Source of the DNA: Bacilli bacterium | GTDB lineage: Bacteria; Bacillota_I; Bacilli_A; RF39; UBA660 | Assembly (NCBI GenBank): GCA_017434825.1 | Contig: JAFSGC010000008.1 | Coordinates: 1-64,000, forward strand | Length of the DNA stretch: 64,000 nucleotides | Direction: 5' to 3' | Shown: piece by piece, positions 18,337 through 56,706 of the stretch | How the letters are laid out: each line of letters starts with the position of its first letter | Numbering within the stretch: position 1 is the stretch's first letter | Notes under the pieces: model-generated | Told to the model about the DNA's origin: nothing | The model's database searches: none | What the model saw: the letters and a program-made list of their open reading frames with translations, nothing else | Position numbers and translations under genes: made by a program

Positions 18337-18359
18337 AAAGACTACAATAAGTAGTCTTT
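18337..18359 (-). terminator. Terminator overlapping the stop codon of the 510-residue surface protein
   Basis: AAAGACTAC and GTAGTCTTT form a 9-bp stem with a 5-nt loop; the TAA stop is within the stem. The minus-strand tail is T-rich (TTATTTTG). Confidence 0.6.
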
Positions 18360-19890
18360 AACTGATAATATACGGTTTTGCTTTTGAACCATTTCCAGAT
18401 ACAATTTGAACATCACTATCTAAATACATCGTAGGTCTTAAACTTCTAGTTGAGTAATCAGTCAAATATGGTTCTATTGCAACAGGACCATTACTATTAA
18501 TTCTAACTATTTGTGAACCCGAAGAACCTTGCACTGATGATGGCGTCAAAGTATATTGATATGTACCAGAAGCATGTAACCAATCATATTGATAACAATT
18601 ACCATAAGTACTATTATTATATGCATATAAAGCTAGAGTCCTAGAACCACATGTTCCCCCGTATGACGCATATCCGTAATCACTCGGATACAAGAGACCT
18701 ACATAGGCATCGAAATTTAATACTGATGCACCATATCCTAATACACTCCCTCTTTCAAGCTCATAAAAATCGTTAGAATTTTTACTGCTCCAATCTGAGC
18801 CCACAGCGCCAACATACCATTTAGCTTTTACAATCATGTTTCGGGATTCTTGTGTAAGACCTAAAGCATAATTTGTCGAACTATAAGTTAAATTTGTACC
18901 TTTATAAAAAGTATTATTTAATGCATTATATAAATTTGAATTCACTACATTTGAATTAGGCATTGTACTTCTATCAGTAAGTGCTGGTAATACTGAACTA
19001 CGAATTATTTTTGTATAATACTTACCAGCTGTAAGACCAATAGTGCTTCCTTCAAAAGCTCCAATTATACGATATTCTTCCCCATTAAATGTTACATAAT
19101 TATCAGGATTCTTACCTTCATACCTGTAACCATTTTCATTATATACACGATATACACTTGAATCTTGGCTTGATGTATGATCCTTACCATCTGCAAACGC
19201 TAAAACTTCACTTGCTAAAGTTTGTTTTGTACAGGATACATTATCCAGTTTAATAGAACCATTTAATTGAGCTCCTCTTAGATGATCTTGAACAACATTC
19301 AAATTATAAAAATTGGCAGTCATTTGATAAGTTTGAGTAACATGTGGACTAAGTCCATTAGTGTGATTACAAATTCTACTAGAATAAACAGAATTACTTA
19401 ATGCAGATGCATTATAATTAGGAATTTGAACATTAAACATCTCCTGACCACTAACACCTGTTTGAGTAGCTCCATCACTATCTAAATAATTTTCTGTTAA
19501 AACTCCAGTTAAGACATATTCATTACTACCACCCGTAGATAATGTATATTGATTTTTAGCAGTACTGGTCGAATCCCATTCCCACATAATATTGTAACTA
19601 CAACAAATTGCTTCAGCGCCATCCGTATCTAGTGAAATAATAACATTATCAGTAGCGGTCGCTACCACGTTATTAGCATTACCTTCAGCCATTGATTCAA
19701 AATCAACTTCAACACTTAATGTATTGGCACCTGAGGCTACAAAAGCAATTGGTCCTCCAGTAATATTAGTATTTATATCTAAATTATTAACTGTTATAGT
19801 AGGACTTACTGCAGCATAAGCAGCATAAACGACCATAACTAGTAAAAAAGCACAAGTTCCAATTAATGTAGCAATATTATGCTTATTCAT
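18358..19890 (-). CDS. Surface protein with TasA/camelysin-like N-terminus and C-terminal PY.I module
   Basis: A 510-residue exported protein. The N-terminus has a membrane helix with a VYAAYAA end (about residues 8-28), the type processed by SipW-like signal peptidases. The next 200 residues resemble a TasA/camelysin-like beta domain (SIKLDNVSC at its end). The C-terminal 270 residues begin SSQDSSVYRV and carry GYRYEGKNPDNYVTFNGEEY, RIIGAFEGSTIGL, many Tyr/Gly/Ser residues, and end GNGSKAKPYIIS. This C-terminal module is shared with the proteins at 49714 and 51324, so the gene is a modular relative. Function (matrix, adhesion) is inference. The start follows AGGTGAG. Confidence 0.7.
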   Translation of the reverse strand: MNKHNIATLIGTCAFLLVMVVYAAYAAVSPTITVNNLDINTNITGGPIAFVASGANTLSVEVDFESMAEGNANNVVATATDNVIISLDTDGAEAICCSYNIMWEWDSTSTAKNQYTLSTGGSNEYVLTGVLTENYLDSDGATQTGVSGQEMFNVQIPNYNASALSNSVYSSRICNHTNGLSPHVTQTYQMTANFYNLNVVQDHLRGAQLNGSIKLDNVSCTKQTLASEVLAFADGKDHTSSQDSSVYRVYNENGYRYEGKNPDNYVTFNGEEYRIIGAFEGSTIGLTAGKYYTKIIRSSVLPALTDRSTMPNSNVVNSNLYNALNNTFYKGTNLTYSSTNYALGLTQESRNMIVKAKWYVGAVGSDWSSKNSNDFYELERGSVLGYGASVLNFDAYVGLLYPSDYGYASYGGTCGSRTLALYAYNNSTYGNCYQYDWLHASGTYQYTLTPSSVQGSSGSQIVRINSNGPVAIEPYLTDYSTRSLRPTMYLDSDVQIVSGNGSKAKPYIIS

Positions 19891-51168: not shown

Positions 51169-51210
51169 TTTTACAACCTCTTTAACTACCCTATACCCTT
51201 ATTTTGTCCC

Positions 51211-51238
51211 ATATTATCAAAAAAAAAAAAAAAATCAA
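51211..51238 (-). promoter_or_regulatory. Promoter with a 16-nt T homopolymer in its spacer
   Basis: On the minus strand TTGATT (51238-51233), a 16-bp spacer of 14 T plus GA, then TAATAT (51216-51211). The whole T run is 16 nt (51219-51234) and overlaps the -35. Spacer length would change with every slippage event. Confidence 0.6.
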
Positions 51239-51301
51239 GGTGATTTTAAGCTTCTTAATTCTCCCGAAGAAAATGATTAATAAAAAAATTAGCTCACAAA
51301 A

Positions 51302-52816: not shown

Positions 52817-52845
52817 ATTATAACAAAATATAAAAGGATTTACAA
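52817..52845 (-). promoter_or_regulatory. Promoter of surface gene copy 2
   Basis: On the minus strand TTGTAA, 17-bp spacer, perfect TATAAT. Confidence 0.7.
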
Positions 52846-52886: not shown

Positions 52887-54752
52887 TTATTTTTGACAGA
52901 AAATATTATTTAATAATGATTGTAATTCCTCACGATTAATAGGTTTTGAAATATAGCCATCAAATCCTTCGTTTAAATACATTTCTTTCATTCCTACCAT
53001 AGCATTAGCAGTAAGCGCTATAATCGGAGGAATTTTCACATTTTCAAGAGCGCGTATGTTTCTTAGAGTCTCAATTCCATCCATAATTGGCATCATGTGA
53101 TCTAAGAATATTAAATCGTAACGAGCGCCTTCTTTTATTTTCTTAATTGCTTCTTCACCGCTACTTGCTAATGTAATTTGAAATTTATAATCACTTAAAA
53201 TTCTTTCTGCAACCTTTAAATTTAAGTTATTATCATCAACTACTAATATATCATATAGTGAACCATCAAAATGAATATTAGTATGTGCTGATTGACTAAT
53301 CGTTTGAACTTGAGCATTTTGAATATTACCATAATATATCTTTTGAGGCATTATTACAGTAAATGTTGTACCTTTTCCATACTCACTTTCAAATGTAATT
53401 GTACCTCCCAAAAGCTCAACTAGCTTTTTAGTGATTACTAACCCCAAACCAGTGCCTTCGATTTCGCGATAGTTTTCTTGGTTATTAATCCTAGAAAACT
53501 TAACAAACATTTTATCAAAGTCACTTTCTTTAATCCCGATACCGGAATCCGCTACCACAAATTTTAAATTTGCATATTCTCCCATATTCTCTGCTGAAAC
53601 TAAGAAATCAATATGCCCTTGTTCAGTATATTTCGCAGCATTTGATAATAAATTCATTAAAATTTGATATACCTTTAATTCATCACCAATAAAATGGGAA
53701 GGAACATCACGATCAATTTGAACGTTAAGCTTAATTTTATCGGTATCAAGCTTTGACATAATTACACTAGTAAGTTGCATAACAACTTTTCTAAATTCAT
53801 ATATCTTTTCATTCTTTTCTTCTTTACCACTTTCAATTCTCGATACATCTAGTATATTATTAATAATTTGTAAAAGTGTTGTTGATGCGTCATAAATATT
53901 TTGAACTTCACCCTTTTGTTTTTCGTTTAATTCTTCCATTAATAAGGCTTCACTAAATCCAATAATAGCATTCATCGGAGTACGAATATCGTGACTCATA
54001 TTAGATAAGAAATCGGTTTTAGCTTTTGAAGCCTCTTCTACTTGTTCTTTTTCTACTTCCAGCTCTGCTATAATTTTCAAATCTTGATTTTCACGTGTAA
54101 AATATACAAATAATAATGTAAATGCTCTTACCGAACTAACTAACATTATTGTTGGGAAAATCCATTGTAAAACCATTGATAATACTACAAGTAATAAGAA
54201 AACGAATACCGGTAAACTCTTTGCAAAACTTACCTTTTTAGGATTCTTTATTAAATATAATGCTGCAACAAACATATATACTGCTCCTACTAAATAGGAA
54301 ACAAATATAGCAGTACCATGTCTTTCCGCGTTAAATAATTCAAAATCAAATGAATAGCGTACATCTAATAAAGATATCAATATTGATGCCAAAACAGTAA
54401 AATATAATCCCCATCTAAAATGAGATGTATTTTTAAATAGTTCCTTTAAATTATAATTTTCTGCTTCAGTATTAATGGTTAAAACATATACCATTAGCCA
54501 CCAACACCAAAACAAAGAAACAATTAAATATATTTTATTTACAACATCAACTAACAAAAACTTTGTTTCATGTAATGGAATTAACAAATTCAAGCTAATA
54601 TCCAAAAGCAATATGGCAGTTGTTAATAACAAGAAAATTTGGAATACCACACCTTTTAAATTCCTTTTTTTGTTCTTATATGTAAAGATTCCTAATAAAA
54701 GGAACATATACAATAAAGAACAAACTTGAAACGCAATATTTTTAAACATCAT
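52887..54752 (-). CDS. Hybrid sensor histidine kinase with C-terminal receiver
   Basis: A 621-residue protein. The first 220 residues hold about seven membrane helices (7TM-type sensor), then a coiled linker. HisKA: FLSNMSHDIRTPMNAIIGFS with the phosphorylated His. ATPase: NLLSNAAKYTEQG, ADSGIGI and GTGLGLVITKKLVELLGG are the N, G1 and G2 boxes. The C-terminal receiver (about 500-621) has DILVVDDNNLNLKVAERILS and DLIFLDHMMPIMDG with the phospho-accepting Asp, and KPIN at its end. With the two following genes it makes a closed phosphorelay. It follows the response regulator gene by one base. Confidence 0.93.
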   Translation of the reverse strand: MMFKNIAFQVCSLLYMFLLLGIFTYKNKKRNLKGVVFQIFLLLTTAILLLDISLNLLIPLHETKFLLVDVVNKIYLIVSLFWCWWLMVYVLTINTEAENYNLKELFKNTSHFRWGLYFTVLASILISLLDVRYSFDFELFNAERHGTAIFVSYLVGAVYMFVAALYLIKNPKKVSFAKSLPVFVFLLLVVLSMVLQWIFPTIMLVSSVRAFTLLFVYFTRENQDLKIIAELEVEKEQVEEASKAKTDFLSNMSHDIRTPMNAIIGFSEALLMEELNEKQKGEVQNIYDASTTLLQIINNILDVSRIESGKEEKNEKIYEFRKVVMQLTSVIMSKLDTDKIKLNVQIDRDVPSHFIGDELKVYQILMNLLSNAAKYTEQGHIDFLVSAENMGEYANLKFVVADSGIGIKESDFDKMFVKFSRINNQENYREIEGTGLGLVITKKLVELLGGTITFESEYGKGTTFTVIMPQKIYYGNIQNAQVQTISQSAHTNIHFDGSLYDILVVDDNNLNLKVAERILSDYKFQITLASSGEEAIKKIKEGARYDLIFLDHMMPIMDGIETLRNIRALENVKIPPIIALTANAMVGMKEMYLNEGFDGYISKPINREELQSLLNNIFCQK

Positions 54753-54753
54753 A

Positions 54754-56328
54754 TTACTTCATCTCCCCTACTGCAGCATTAAATATTTCGATTGCTTCCG
54801 GAGAATATTTAGTACCATTTTTATTATTAATAAGATTTTTAACTTCTTCATAATCTATTGTGCTATGACTCATAATATAGTTTGTATACTCTAAAGCTAT
54901 ATTAATTAAATAAACATAATACGGAATTTGGTTTTCTTTAACCCCAAGAGGAAATCCACTTCCATCATATCTTTCATTATGTAATTTCACTATGTTAGTT
55001 GCATATTTTACAAAAGAATCACTTTCATTTTCAGTAATATATTTTATAATATTGGCTCCTACATTTGGATAATTCATAACAACTTTTCTTTCTTCTTCAG
55101 ATAAGTTATTAATTCTTTCTAAATATTTTCGAGGAACAAAATCTAGAGATAAATCATAATATCTAGCTGCACTAATAATACTGTCTACATCAACTTTTTC
55201 TTCCTTCAATTCAGCATATTTATCAAGAAGTATTTTAGAATACTTAGAAACCATTTCATTTATTGACGCATAATCTATTAAATAAGCCTTTGCATAACCT
55301 TTTAAAATATCTTTTAATTCCCATTCTTGAATTCTTATAAGATCATTTAAAATATTGCTTTTAGCATACATTCTTACCATATTACTAACGCGTTTTTTAA
55401 TTAATTCATAATTAAAAGGTTTTTCTATCATATCGGCAATTTCATAACTATATACTTCTTCTTTGGTTTCTTTAGCATCATCCGCAGATATAATTATTAT
55501 TGGAAGTCTAGCAATTATTCTCTTATCAGTCAAATAATCTAAAACACCAAAACCATCCATAATTGGCATTTTCAAATCTAAAAACATACCTACAATATTT
55601 TCTGTACCATCTTCATTTACTAAATTATTTTCAATTATTTCGACAGCTTCAGCACCATTTTTAGCTTCTATAATATTAAAATCTTTTTCAAATACTTTCT
55701 TAAAAATGTTTCTCGTTAAATTATCATCATCAACTATCAATAAAGATTCATTAACTTTATTTACTTCACCGGTTACTTTTTCTTGATACTTCTTTAATAC
55801 AGTACTATTTTTAATCTTAACATCGTTAATAAGCTCCATAATATATTTAAGAGCATTATTTACTTCATAACTATCCGTTTTTAAATGGTCTATTACATTT
55901 TCAATGCCAAGTATTAACTCTGCTGTAATATAACTTAAATCATCATCATGATTTGTTTTTTCTGTTTCTAGGTCACATTTCAATGATAAAACAATAATTT
56001 TACCATCAGGAAGCAACTTGATAATATCTACATATGAGTCATATGATAAATTACTTGATAACTTTAAATATTTAATACATTCATAATCATTATTACTATT
56101 TTGTAATTTATTTAAACTAATAGCATCAAAATATTTATTTATATAATCTGGATGAATTACTTTTTTTAATTTCTCAAAATATAATTCATAAGTATTAGAT
56201 TCAGTTTCTACAAGCGTATTATTACAATCAAAAAAAGTTACTTTATCATTTTGTATATCAATTAAAGTAATATTGCTATAAACATTTATAGCAGAGGTAT
56301 TTATTAAATTTAAAACATTGCTATCCAT
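54754..56328 (-). CDS. Response regulator with degenerate HD-GYP domain
   Basis: A 524-residue protein. The N-terminal about 130 residues look PAS-like (ITLIDIQNDKVTFFDCNN). The receiver (about 195-315) has LLIVDDDNLTRNIFKKVFEK and GMFLDLKMPIMDGFG (phosphorylation Asp), ISAD and EKPFN. The C-terminal part follows the HD-GYP layout, but ligands are altered: ARYYDLSLDFV instead of HDIGKI, MNYPNVGANI instead of KxHP..G, VKLHNERYDGSGFP instead of HHER.DG.GYP. So it keeps the fold motif DGSG.P and loses the metal site, and is probably not an active c-di-GMP phosphodiesterase. Partner of the kinase and HPt genes. Confidence 0.85.
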   Translation of the reverse strand: MDSNVLNLINTSAINVYSNITLIDIQNDKVTFFDCNNTLVETESNTYELYFEKLKKVIHPDYINKYFDAISLNKLQNSNNDYECIKYLKLSSNLSYDSYVDIIKLLPDGKIIVLSLKCDLETEKTNHDDDLSYITAELILGIENVIDHLKTDSYEVNNALKYIMELINDVKIKNSTVLKKYQEKVTGEVNKVNESLLIVDDDNLTRNIFKKVFEKDFNIIEAKNGAEAVEIIENNLVNEDGTENIVGMFLDLKMPIMDGFGVLDYLTDKRIIARLPIIIISADDAKETKEEVYSYEIADMIEKPFNYELIKKRVSNMVRMYAKSNILNDLIRIQEWELKDILKGYAKAYLIDYASINEMVSKYSKILLDKYAELKEEKVDVDSIISAARYYDLSLDFVPRKYLERINNLSEEERKVVMNYPNVGANIIKYITENESDSFVKYATNIVKLHNERYDGSGFPLGVKENQIPYYVYLINIALEYTNYIMSHSTIDYEEVKNLINNKNGTKYSPEAIEIFNAAVGEMK

Positions 56329-56343
56329 ACTAGTCTTCTCCCT

Positions 56344-56706
56344 TTACAAAGTAAAATATTCATCTAAAATCTTATATATCTCATTTGCTTTTAGAAAAAG
56401 TTCATTAATATGCTCATTAATGTAAGCAATATCGTTCTCTTTACCTTTCATTTCGTGATTGTACGCAAGTTCTGCTAAAGACATAATTCCCAACGTCTTG
56501 CAATTACTTTTTAAAGCATGCACTAAAATAACATAATTTTGATGATCACTAGTTTCATATGCATTTTTTATTCCATTCATTTGTTCAATAAAGCCATTTT
56601 TAAAGTCCAAAAGAATATCATTATACATACTTTCATCTCCAAGATAAGATAAACCAGTATTTACATCAATTCCCTTTTCTGTTAAAAAAGTAAGTTTACT
56701 ATTCAC
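56344..56706 (-). CDS. HPt phosphotransfer protein
   Basis: A 120-residue four-helix protein. The HPt signature is ILVHALKSNCKTLGIMSLAE with His63 as phospho-carrier. The start is GTG after AGAGGAC. It is the first gene of an operon with the response regulator and the hybrid kinase, so it should shuttle phosphate between the kinase receiver and the response regulator receiver. Confidence 0.88.
   Translation of the reverse strand: MNSKLTFLTEKGIDVNTGLSYLGDESMYNDILLDFKNGFIEQMNGIKNAYETSDHQNYVILVHALKSNCKTLGIMSLAELAYNHEMKGKENDIAYINEHINELFLKANEIYKILDEYFTL

Follow-up and report, generated by a model that had tools for sequence, protein, structure and literature searches.

The long T run upstream of a surface-protein gene in the 64,000-nt stretch of DNA analysed here (the window) is best read as a means of slipped-strand phase variation of surface genes through promoter spacing, a reading to which we assign, from sequence comparisons, a probability of roughly 0.78. 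The original prediction had treated this locus as a single case. Its description of the locus held, but the locus proved to belong to a system with several loci. The run would serve as the spacer of a sigma-A type promoter composed of TTGATT as -35 and TGA-TAATAT as extended -10 element. Slipped-strand mispairing during replication would add or remove T's and shift the distance between -35 and -10 by single bases, and, under the presumed dependence on length, transcription of the surface gene would change randomly between on, weak and off states in the daughter cells. The optimum for such a spacer lies near 17 nt. At 16 nt the window promoter would be near-optimal, weak or intermediate, and the gain of one T would bring it to 17. 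With the same module at separate loci a cell would sample combinations of surface proteins, and each cell probably switches each surface protein at random. Such switching may have a role in host or phage interaction.

The window locus and its copies in the genome

Read directly on the minus strand from position 51240, the locus has the sequence CC TTGATT TTTTTTTTTTTTTT GA TAATAT GGGACAAAATAAGGGT, 5' of the 484-aa gene (Table 1). The gap between TTGATT and TAATAT consists of 14 T's and GA (51232-51217) and is 16 nt long, so that the predicted arrangement within a 16-T homopolymer was found at 51238-51211 exactly as described. All other A/T runs in the window are of 8 nt or less (12 runs of 8). 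The putative hexamers are weak, with 4 of 6 positions matching in each, and a generic sigma-70 scan, which needed at least 9 of 12, did not call the window promoter. TGA preceding a -10 hexamer is read as an extended -10 element; together with conservation in relatives this element supports the proposed promoter. The fixed 17-bp spacing predicted for the tandem paralogue was also confirmed.

Table 1. Features of the surface-protein locus in the window
Feature	Position	Strand	Remarks
Surface-protein gene P0001, 484 aa	49714..51168	-	N-terminal hydrophobic segment, beta-rich region, C-terminal domain
Ribosome-binding site AAAGAGG	51177..51183	-	Direct reading
Conserved box ATGGGACAAAATAAGGGT past the -10, probable transcript start and right arm of the inverted repeat found whole in other copies	51195..51212	-	Alignment of the four copies of the window genome and the G003, G005 and G007 modules
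GA and -10-like TAATAT (51216-51211); TGA as putative extended -10	51211..51218	-	GA[TG]ANNAT follows tracts in the genus
T16 homopolymer, proposed slippage tract and promoter spacer	51219..51234	-	Direct reading
-35-like hexamer TTGATT, last two T's shared with the run	51233..51238	-	TTG enriched before tracts in the genus
Tandem paralogue P0002, 488 aa	51324..52790	-	61% identical to P0001, without T run
Fixed promoter of P0002, TTGTAA-17-TATAAT	52817..52845	-	With TG extension; no long run

The C-terminal domain of P0001 resembles DUF6273 (PF19789) with a score below the cut-off. In a predicted structure, residues 219-484 matched the N-terminal part (32-304) of the IgA peptidase of Thomasclavelia ramosa (9qa6) with a Z score of 13.9 and an rmsd of 3.0 over 188 residues at 15% identity; overall confidence in this model is low, being moderate in the C-terminal domain and low elsewhere, and the C-terminal domain alone gave a structure match well above noise. 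This resemblance could point to an immunoglobulin- or glycan-related function of the common DUF6273-like domain, a likeness of fold being no proof of function. A further P0001-like gene on the minus strand, at 18358-19890 of the window, is 51% identical in the C-terminal domain and has no long T run. Directly upstream of both surface genes, on the same strand, the region 52887-56706 encodes a hybrid histidine kinase with a receiver domain, a receiver-HD protein and a 120-aa protein, which are possible regulators.

The genome to which the window belongs (1.07 Mb in 20 contigs) contains 21 T/A runs of at least 9 nt, none of 12-15 nt and four of 16-17 nt (16, 16, 16 and 17). Extrapolation of the decay in run length gave an expectation of at most 0.15 runs of 16 or more. 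The flank CCTTGA-Tn-GATARTATGGG is common to all four of the long runs. In the other three copies the run is enclosed by an inverted repeat, CCCTTGATTTT/AAAATCAAGGG, with a single change in one of them (AAAATCGAGGG); folding gave a stem for the repeat of copies 2 and 3, and the right arm of the repeat has decayed in the window copy (AAAATAAGGG). An 857-aa anchored protein starts 50 nt downstream of the copy at C8:2826. The copy at C8:126 sits past the stop codon of the gene for the 857-aa protein and that at C15:69188 is at a contig end. Because the contigs end there, the bin lacks the genes behind both of these copies. The ends C8:1-141 and C15:69189-69329 are identical over 141 nt (T16 and a further 125 nt), suggesting a break in a de Bruijn graph. 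Rfam gave no match for the module, and a fifth BLAST match at C4:10012 was dismissed as coincidental, as it has no long T run. Searches outside this genome with its exact flanks returned nothing, and the module was therefore relaxed by aligning tracts of sister species.

Related modules in the genus and the family

Equivalent modules were present in four of nine sister species (G003, G005, G007 and G009); the genus has about 40 such loci. The T runs of the sister modules are 11-36 nt long and their flanks nearly identical. The module reads TTGA-T17-22-GATATTATGCGGAAAAATAAGGGTAGGCG in G003, AATCTTG-T11-33-GAGACAATGNGNAAAATNAAGGGTA in G005 and CAAGATTAGGAATAATCTTG-T17-36-GAGACAATGATAAAAATAAAGGGTATA in G007; by these sequences the modules are species-specific yet alike. 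Among runs of 12 or more with readable upstream sequence in the genus, TTG precedes 35 of 38, as against 13 of 217 control runs of T6-8 in the window (Fisher p about 1e-28). On the other side GA[TG]ANNAT follows 26 of 29 tracts. The -10-like hexamers observed were TAATAT, TAGTAT, TATTAT, GACAAT, GAAAAT and TAAAAT, with A fixed at position 2 and A-T at positions 5-6, which we interpret as the pattern expected of a -10 element. Of the three runs without TTG, two (L123 and L150, 13 T's each) lack the module entirely. In the third, L126 (G005:C26:16294-16317, T24), and likewise at L083 (G007:C15:9-28), the G of TTG has been lost and the remaining T's have fused with the run (AATC-Tn); these two resemble switches with a mutated -35 that may be locked in the off state.

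It might be thought that the runs are homopolymer artefacts of assembly or chance T runs in an AT-rich genome, since the data are from MAGs and contig ends fall in runs. This is scarcely credible: the runs are directional and flank-specific, they recur at dozens of loci, several genomes and different assemblies being represented, and the remaining five sister species have no run of 14 or more.

Within-genome alignments defined the extent of the module. In the window genome and G003 conservation sets in at the -35 edge: over the 10 nt next to the run on its upstream side identity is 0.77 and 0.62, respectively, further out it is approximately at background, and conservation continues for 25-30 nt after the tract. 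In G005 and G007 it reaches 40-50 nt upstream before falling to background. No second conserved promoter was found further upstream in the alignments of these four genomes. The modules of G005 and G007 (L119-L147) lie between the arms of outer inverted repeats, with GTAAATTGACA on the upstream side and TGTCAATTTAC immediately ahead of the ribosome-binding site. These could be operators or could mask the ribosome-binding site in read-through RNA; inspection by eye for covariation or compensation in them was unconvincing.

The extent of the module also bears on the possibility of an intrinsic terminator or attenuator with the run as its U-tail, in which changes in run length would alter read-through and not initiation. 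A terminator-like hairpin of 8-10 bp adjoins nearly every run in G005, G007 and G009 (z mostly -2.4 to -4.7), and folding indicates that read-through RNA could form the leader into a stem comprising the whole module. However, no stable hairpin adjoins the run in any copy of the window species (z -0.3 to 1.3), it is absent in two of the four G003 copies, no terminator was called at the tract, and the fading of upstream conservation within 10-50 nt leaves no room for a conserved upstream promoter. We regard a terminator or attenuator as very unlikely. As the hairpin is present in some species and in none of the copies of the window genome, it is not a defining feature; where it occurs, it perhaps provides insulation from read-through.

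An insertion sequence (IS) of 1.73 kb encoding a 497-aa DDE transposase (PF13751/PF05598/PF01609) was found at L219:5297-7025 and at L217 (G007:C32):13694-15422. We take it to be IS1182-like. At both loci it sits exactly at the hairpin adjoining the run, with about 26 nt (ACACAAGATTAGGAATAATCTTGTTT) duplicated, and from these positions it seems to target switch hairpins. An apparent inversion of 1.2-1.7 kb beside one module, suggestive of an invertible promoter, was in reality this IS in two orientations at two loci.

The genes behind the runs have much in common. A strong N-terminal hydrophobic segment is present in 30 of 32 readable downstream open reading frames, and in the other two we infer that an alternative upstream start restores it. 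Some products have lipobox-like ends, e.g. IISTSC. A single homology network unites 26 of 29 products, including both from the window genome, through a common N-terminal domain of about 100 aa or the DUF6273-like C-terminal domain, matches to the latter being mostly below or near the Pfam cut-off. Judged by their predicted products, the putatively run-controlled genes encode N-terminally anchored or secreted proteins, mostly of one mosaic family.

In the family as a whole, 103 of 386 genomes contain T runs of at least 15 nt. Many of these are unrelated to promoters, and those of G183, G203, G280 and others lie outside such modules. In 25 genomes picked for many runs, TTGN-T13 had 75 matches and the reversed control 6, with the forward/reversed matches concentrated in G365 (23/0), G132 (18/0), G308 (15/0) and G333 (8/1). 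TasA/DUF6273-like genes stand behind these runs in G308, and prepilin-like genes (GFTLIELLAVIVILAIIALI) behind runs in G365 and G299. G341 has a different core, TTGACG-T15-17-AG-TAGGAT, ahead of paralogous genes called TasA-like from a reading of their N-termini and not from a family match; its -35 shares no T's with the run, and its runs are shorter, at 15-17 nt. Five G333 loci (L227, L236, L242, L247 and L251) have a conserved GTAACTTATTAGTTAAAAATAGTTGC before T23-T36 and differing sequences after the run. By their flanks, these loci employ an element of this kind in another way. We suggest only tentatively, at a little less than even odds, that the whole family of uncultured small-genome gut Bacilli has a multi-locus poly-T contingency system by which a large part of the secreted and surface proteins (DUF6273/TasA-like proteins and prepilins) would be switched independently of one another, the run doubling in some lineages as the U-tail of an insulating terminator hairpin to give a fused terminator-promoter switch.

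Variation in tract length

Tract length varied within genomes. In G007 about 30 nt on each side of the run are about 90-100% identical among loci, with 17-36 T's between them; here and elsewhere some lengths are lower bounds because many contigs end inside the run, and MAG assemblies can misstate homopolymer length. Variation was also seen at one orthologous locus in two strains of one sister species. A 7.3-kb contig of Lapin-017 (GenBank CANRQG010000070) matches G007:C28 (Lapin-028) over 5.3 kb at 99.1% identity, both bins being rabbit-derived to judge by their name. The tract is T15 in Lapin-017 and at least T23 in G007. In Lapin-017 an IS is also inserted in the hairpin beside the tract, so that slippage alone does not account for the difference between the two alleles.

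The length of the spacer is n, the number of T's, in the modules of the window genome and G003, n-1 in G005, G007 and G308, and n+2 in G341. Complete tracts gave spacers of 16, 16, 16 and 17 nt in the window genome, where all copies are thus at 17 or one step away, 17-22 in G003, 15-20 in G308, 17 and 19 in G341 and a wider range of 10-22 in G005 and G007. Many tracts of the last two genomes, lower bounds included, imply spacers of at least 19 and up to 35 nt, and most copies there would therefore be off in their assembled state. Loss of mismatch repair was rejected as the cause as regards MutS: it is encoded in nine of the ten genomes of the genus including that of the window, so that slippage cannot be attributed to its absence.

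The run might alternatively be a fixed spacer that does not switch, kept for another reason or drifting neutrally. Three of the four copies in the window genome share the length of 16, and the T tract of the Mycoplasma agalactiae vpma genes is without effect on expression variation (PMC2268961). Against this, near-identical modules within each sister genome differ in length, as in G007, and so do two strains of one sister species at one locus; we consider a fixed spacer quite unlikely. The original reading of a slippage-prone promoter spacer gains comparative support: the architecture recurs, the length varies, the flanks are kept and surface genes lie downstream.

Comparison with known systems

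Most descriptions of phase variation by simple repeats concern pathogens, and the question whether this is partly a database bias was raised in a 2025 review (PMC11868660). If slipped-strand switching is true of the present modules, which number 4 to about 20 per genome in an uncultured gut lineage and each stand before a surface gene, they would support such a bias. States of surface expression would become readable from metagenome reads by counting T's per locus, host and time, and it would become testable whether IgA, phage or niche drives the switching in the gut.

As regards the features that distinguish known systems, the present modules have the homopolymer between the inferred -35 and -10 and a set of surface proteins under its putative control. 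There is no stable hairpin at the runs of the window genome and no tract outside the core beside the -35. The last point separates them from sabA of Helicobacter pylori, which otherwise is similar in having a poly-T tract of highly variable length, subject to slipped-strand mispairing, at an adhesin promoter (PMC4081817). The sabA tract (T5-T28 among strains) adjoins the -35 outside the spacer and tunes promoter output gradually by DNA phasing (PMC4081817). By analogy the present runs could be a graded rheostat acting by DNA bending or phasing and not by an on/off change in spacing; T runs that are long, as here with up to 36 T's, are stiff and bent. However, the sabA tract leaves core spacing unaltered, whereas here the run lies between two fixed boxes, TTG and GA[TG]ANNAT, so that any change in length must alter spacing. 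A rheostat of this kind is therefore unlikely.

The T tract of vpma lies directly upstream of the -10 and was shown not to cause switching, which cautions, by analogy, that a T tract in such a position need not switch. The vpma genes are instead switched by Xer1 site-specific recombination and use one shared promoter, whereas here each gene has its own (PMC2268961). Closer to the slipped-strand reading are maa2 of M. arthritidis and vmm of M. mycoides, in which insertions and deletions in the -35/-10 spacer switch the gene on and off. They were reported as individual genes in other organisms and not as a multi-locus module (PMC2268961).

The nearest parallel is vlp of M. hyorhinis, a promoter-spacer homopolymer for which switching has been proved (Citti and Wise 1995, as presented in PMC10502178 and PMC2268961). 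According to these accounts, vlp and the present modules are alike in having a homopolymer between -35 and -10, a promoter for each gene and a family of surface proteins. Independent switching is established for vlp and predicted here. The vlp system differs in that its tract is poly-A and not poly-T, its host is a cell-wall-less pathogen and its products are size-variable lipoproteins. Our placement is by mechanism, and common descent with the mycoplasma systems is not claimed. That mechanism is already known. We found no poly-T multi-locus system in the present lineage in the open-access literature, and its multi-locus occurrence in uncultured gut Bacilli is apparently new. With vlp, maa2 and vmm as proven precedents, a slipped-strand change of the spacer is the most economical reading of the modules described here.
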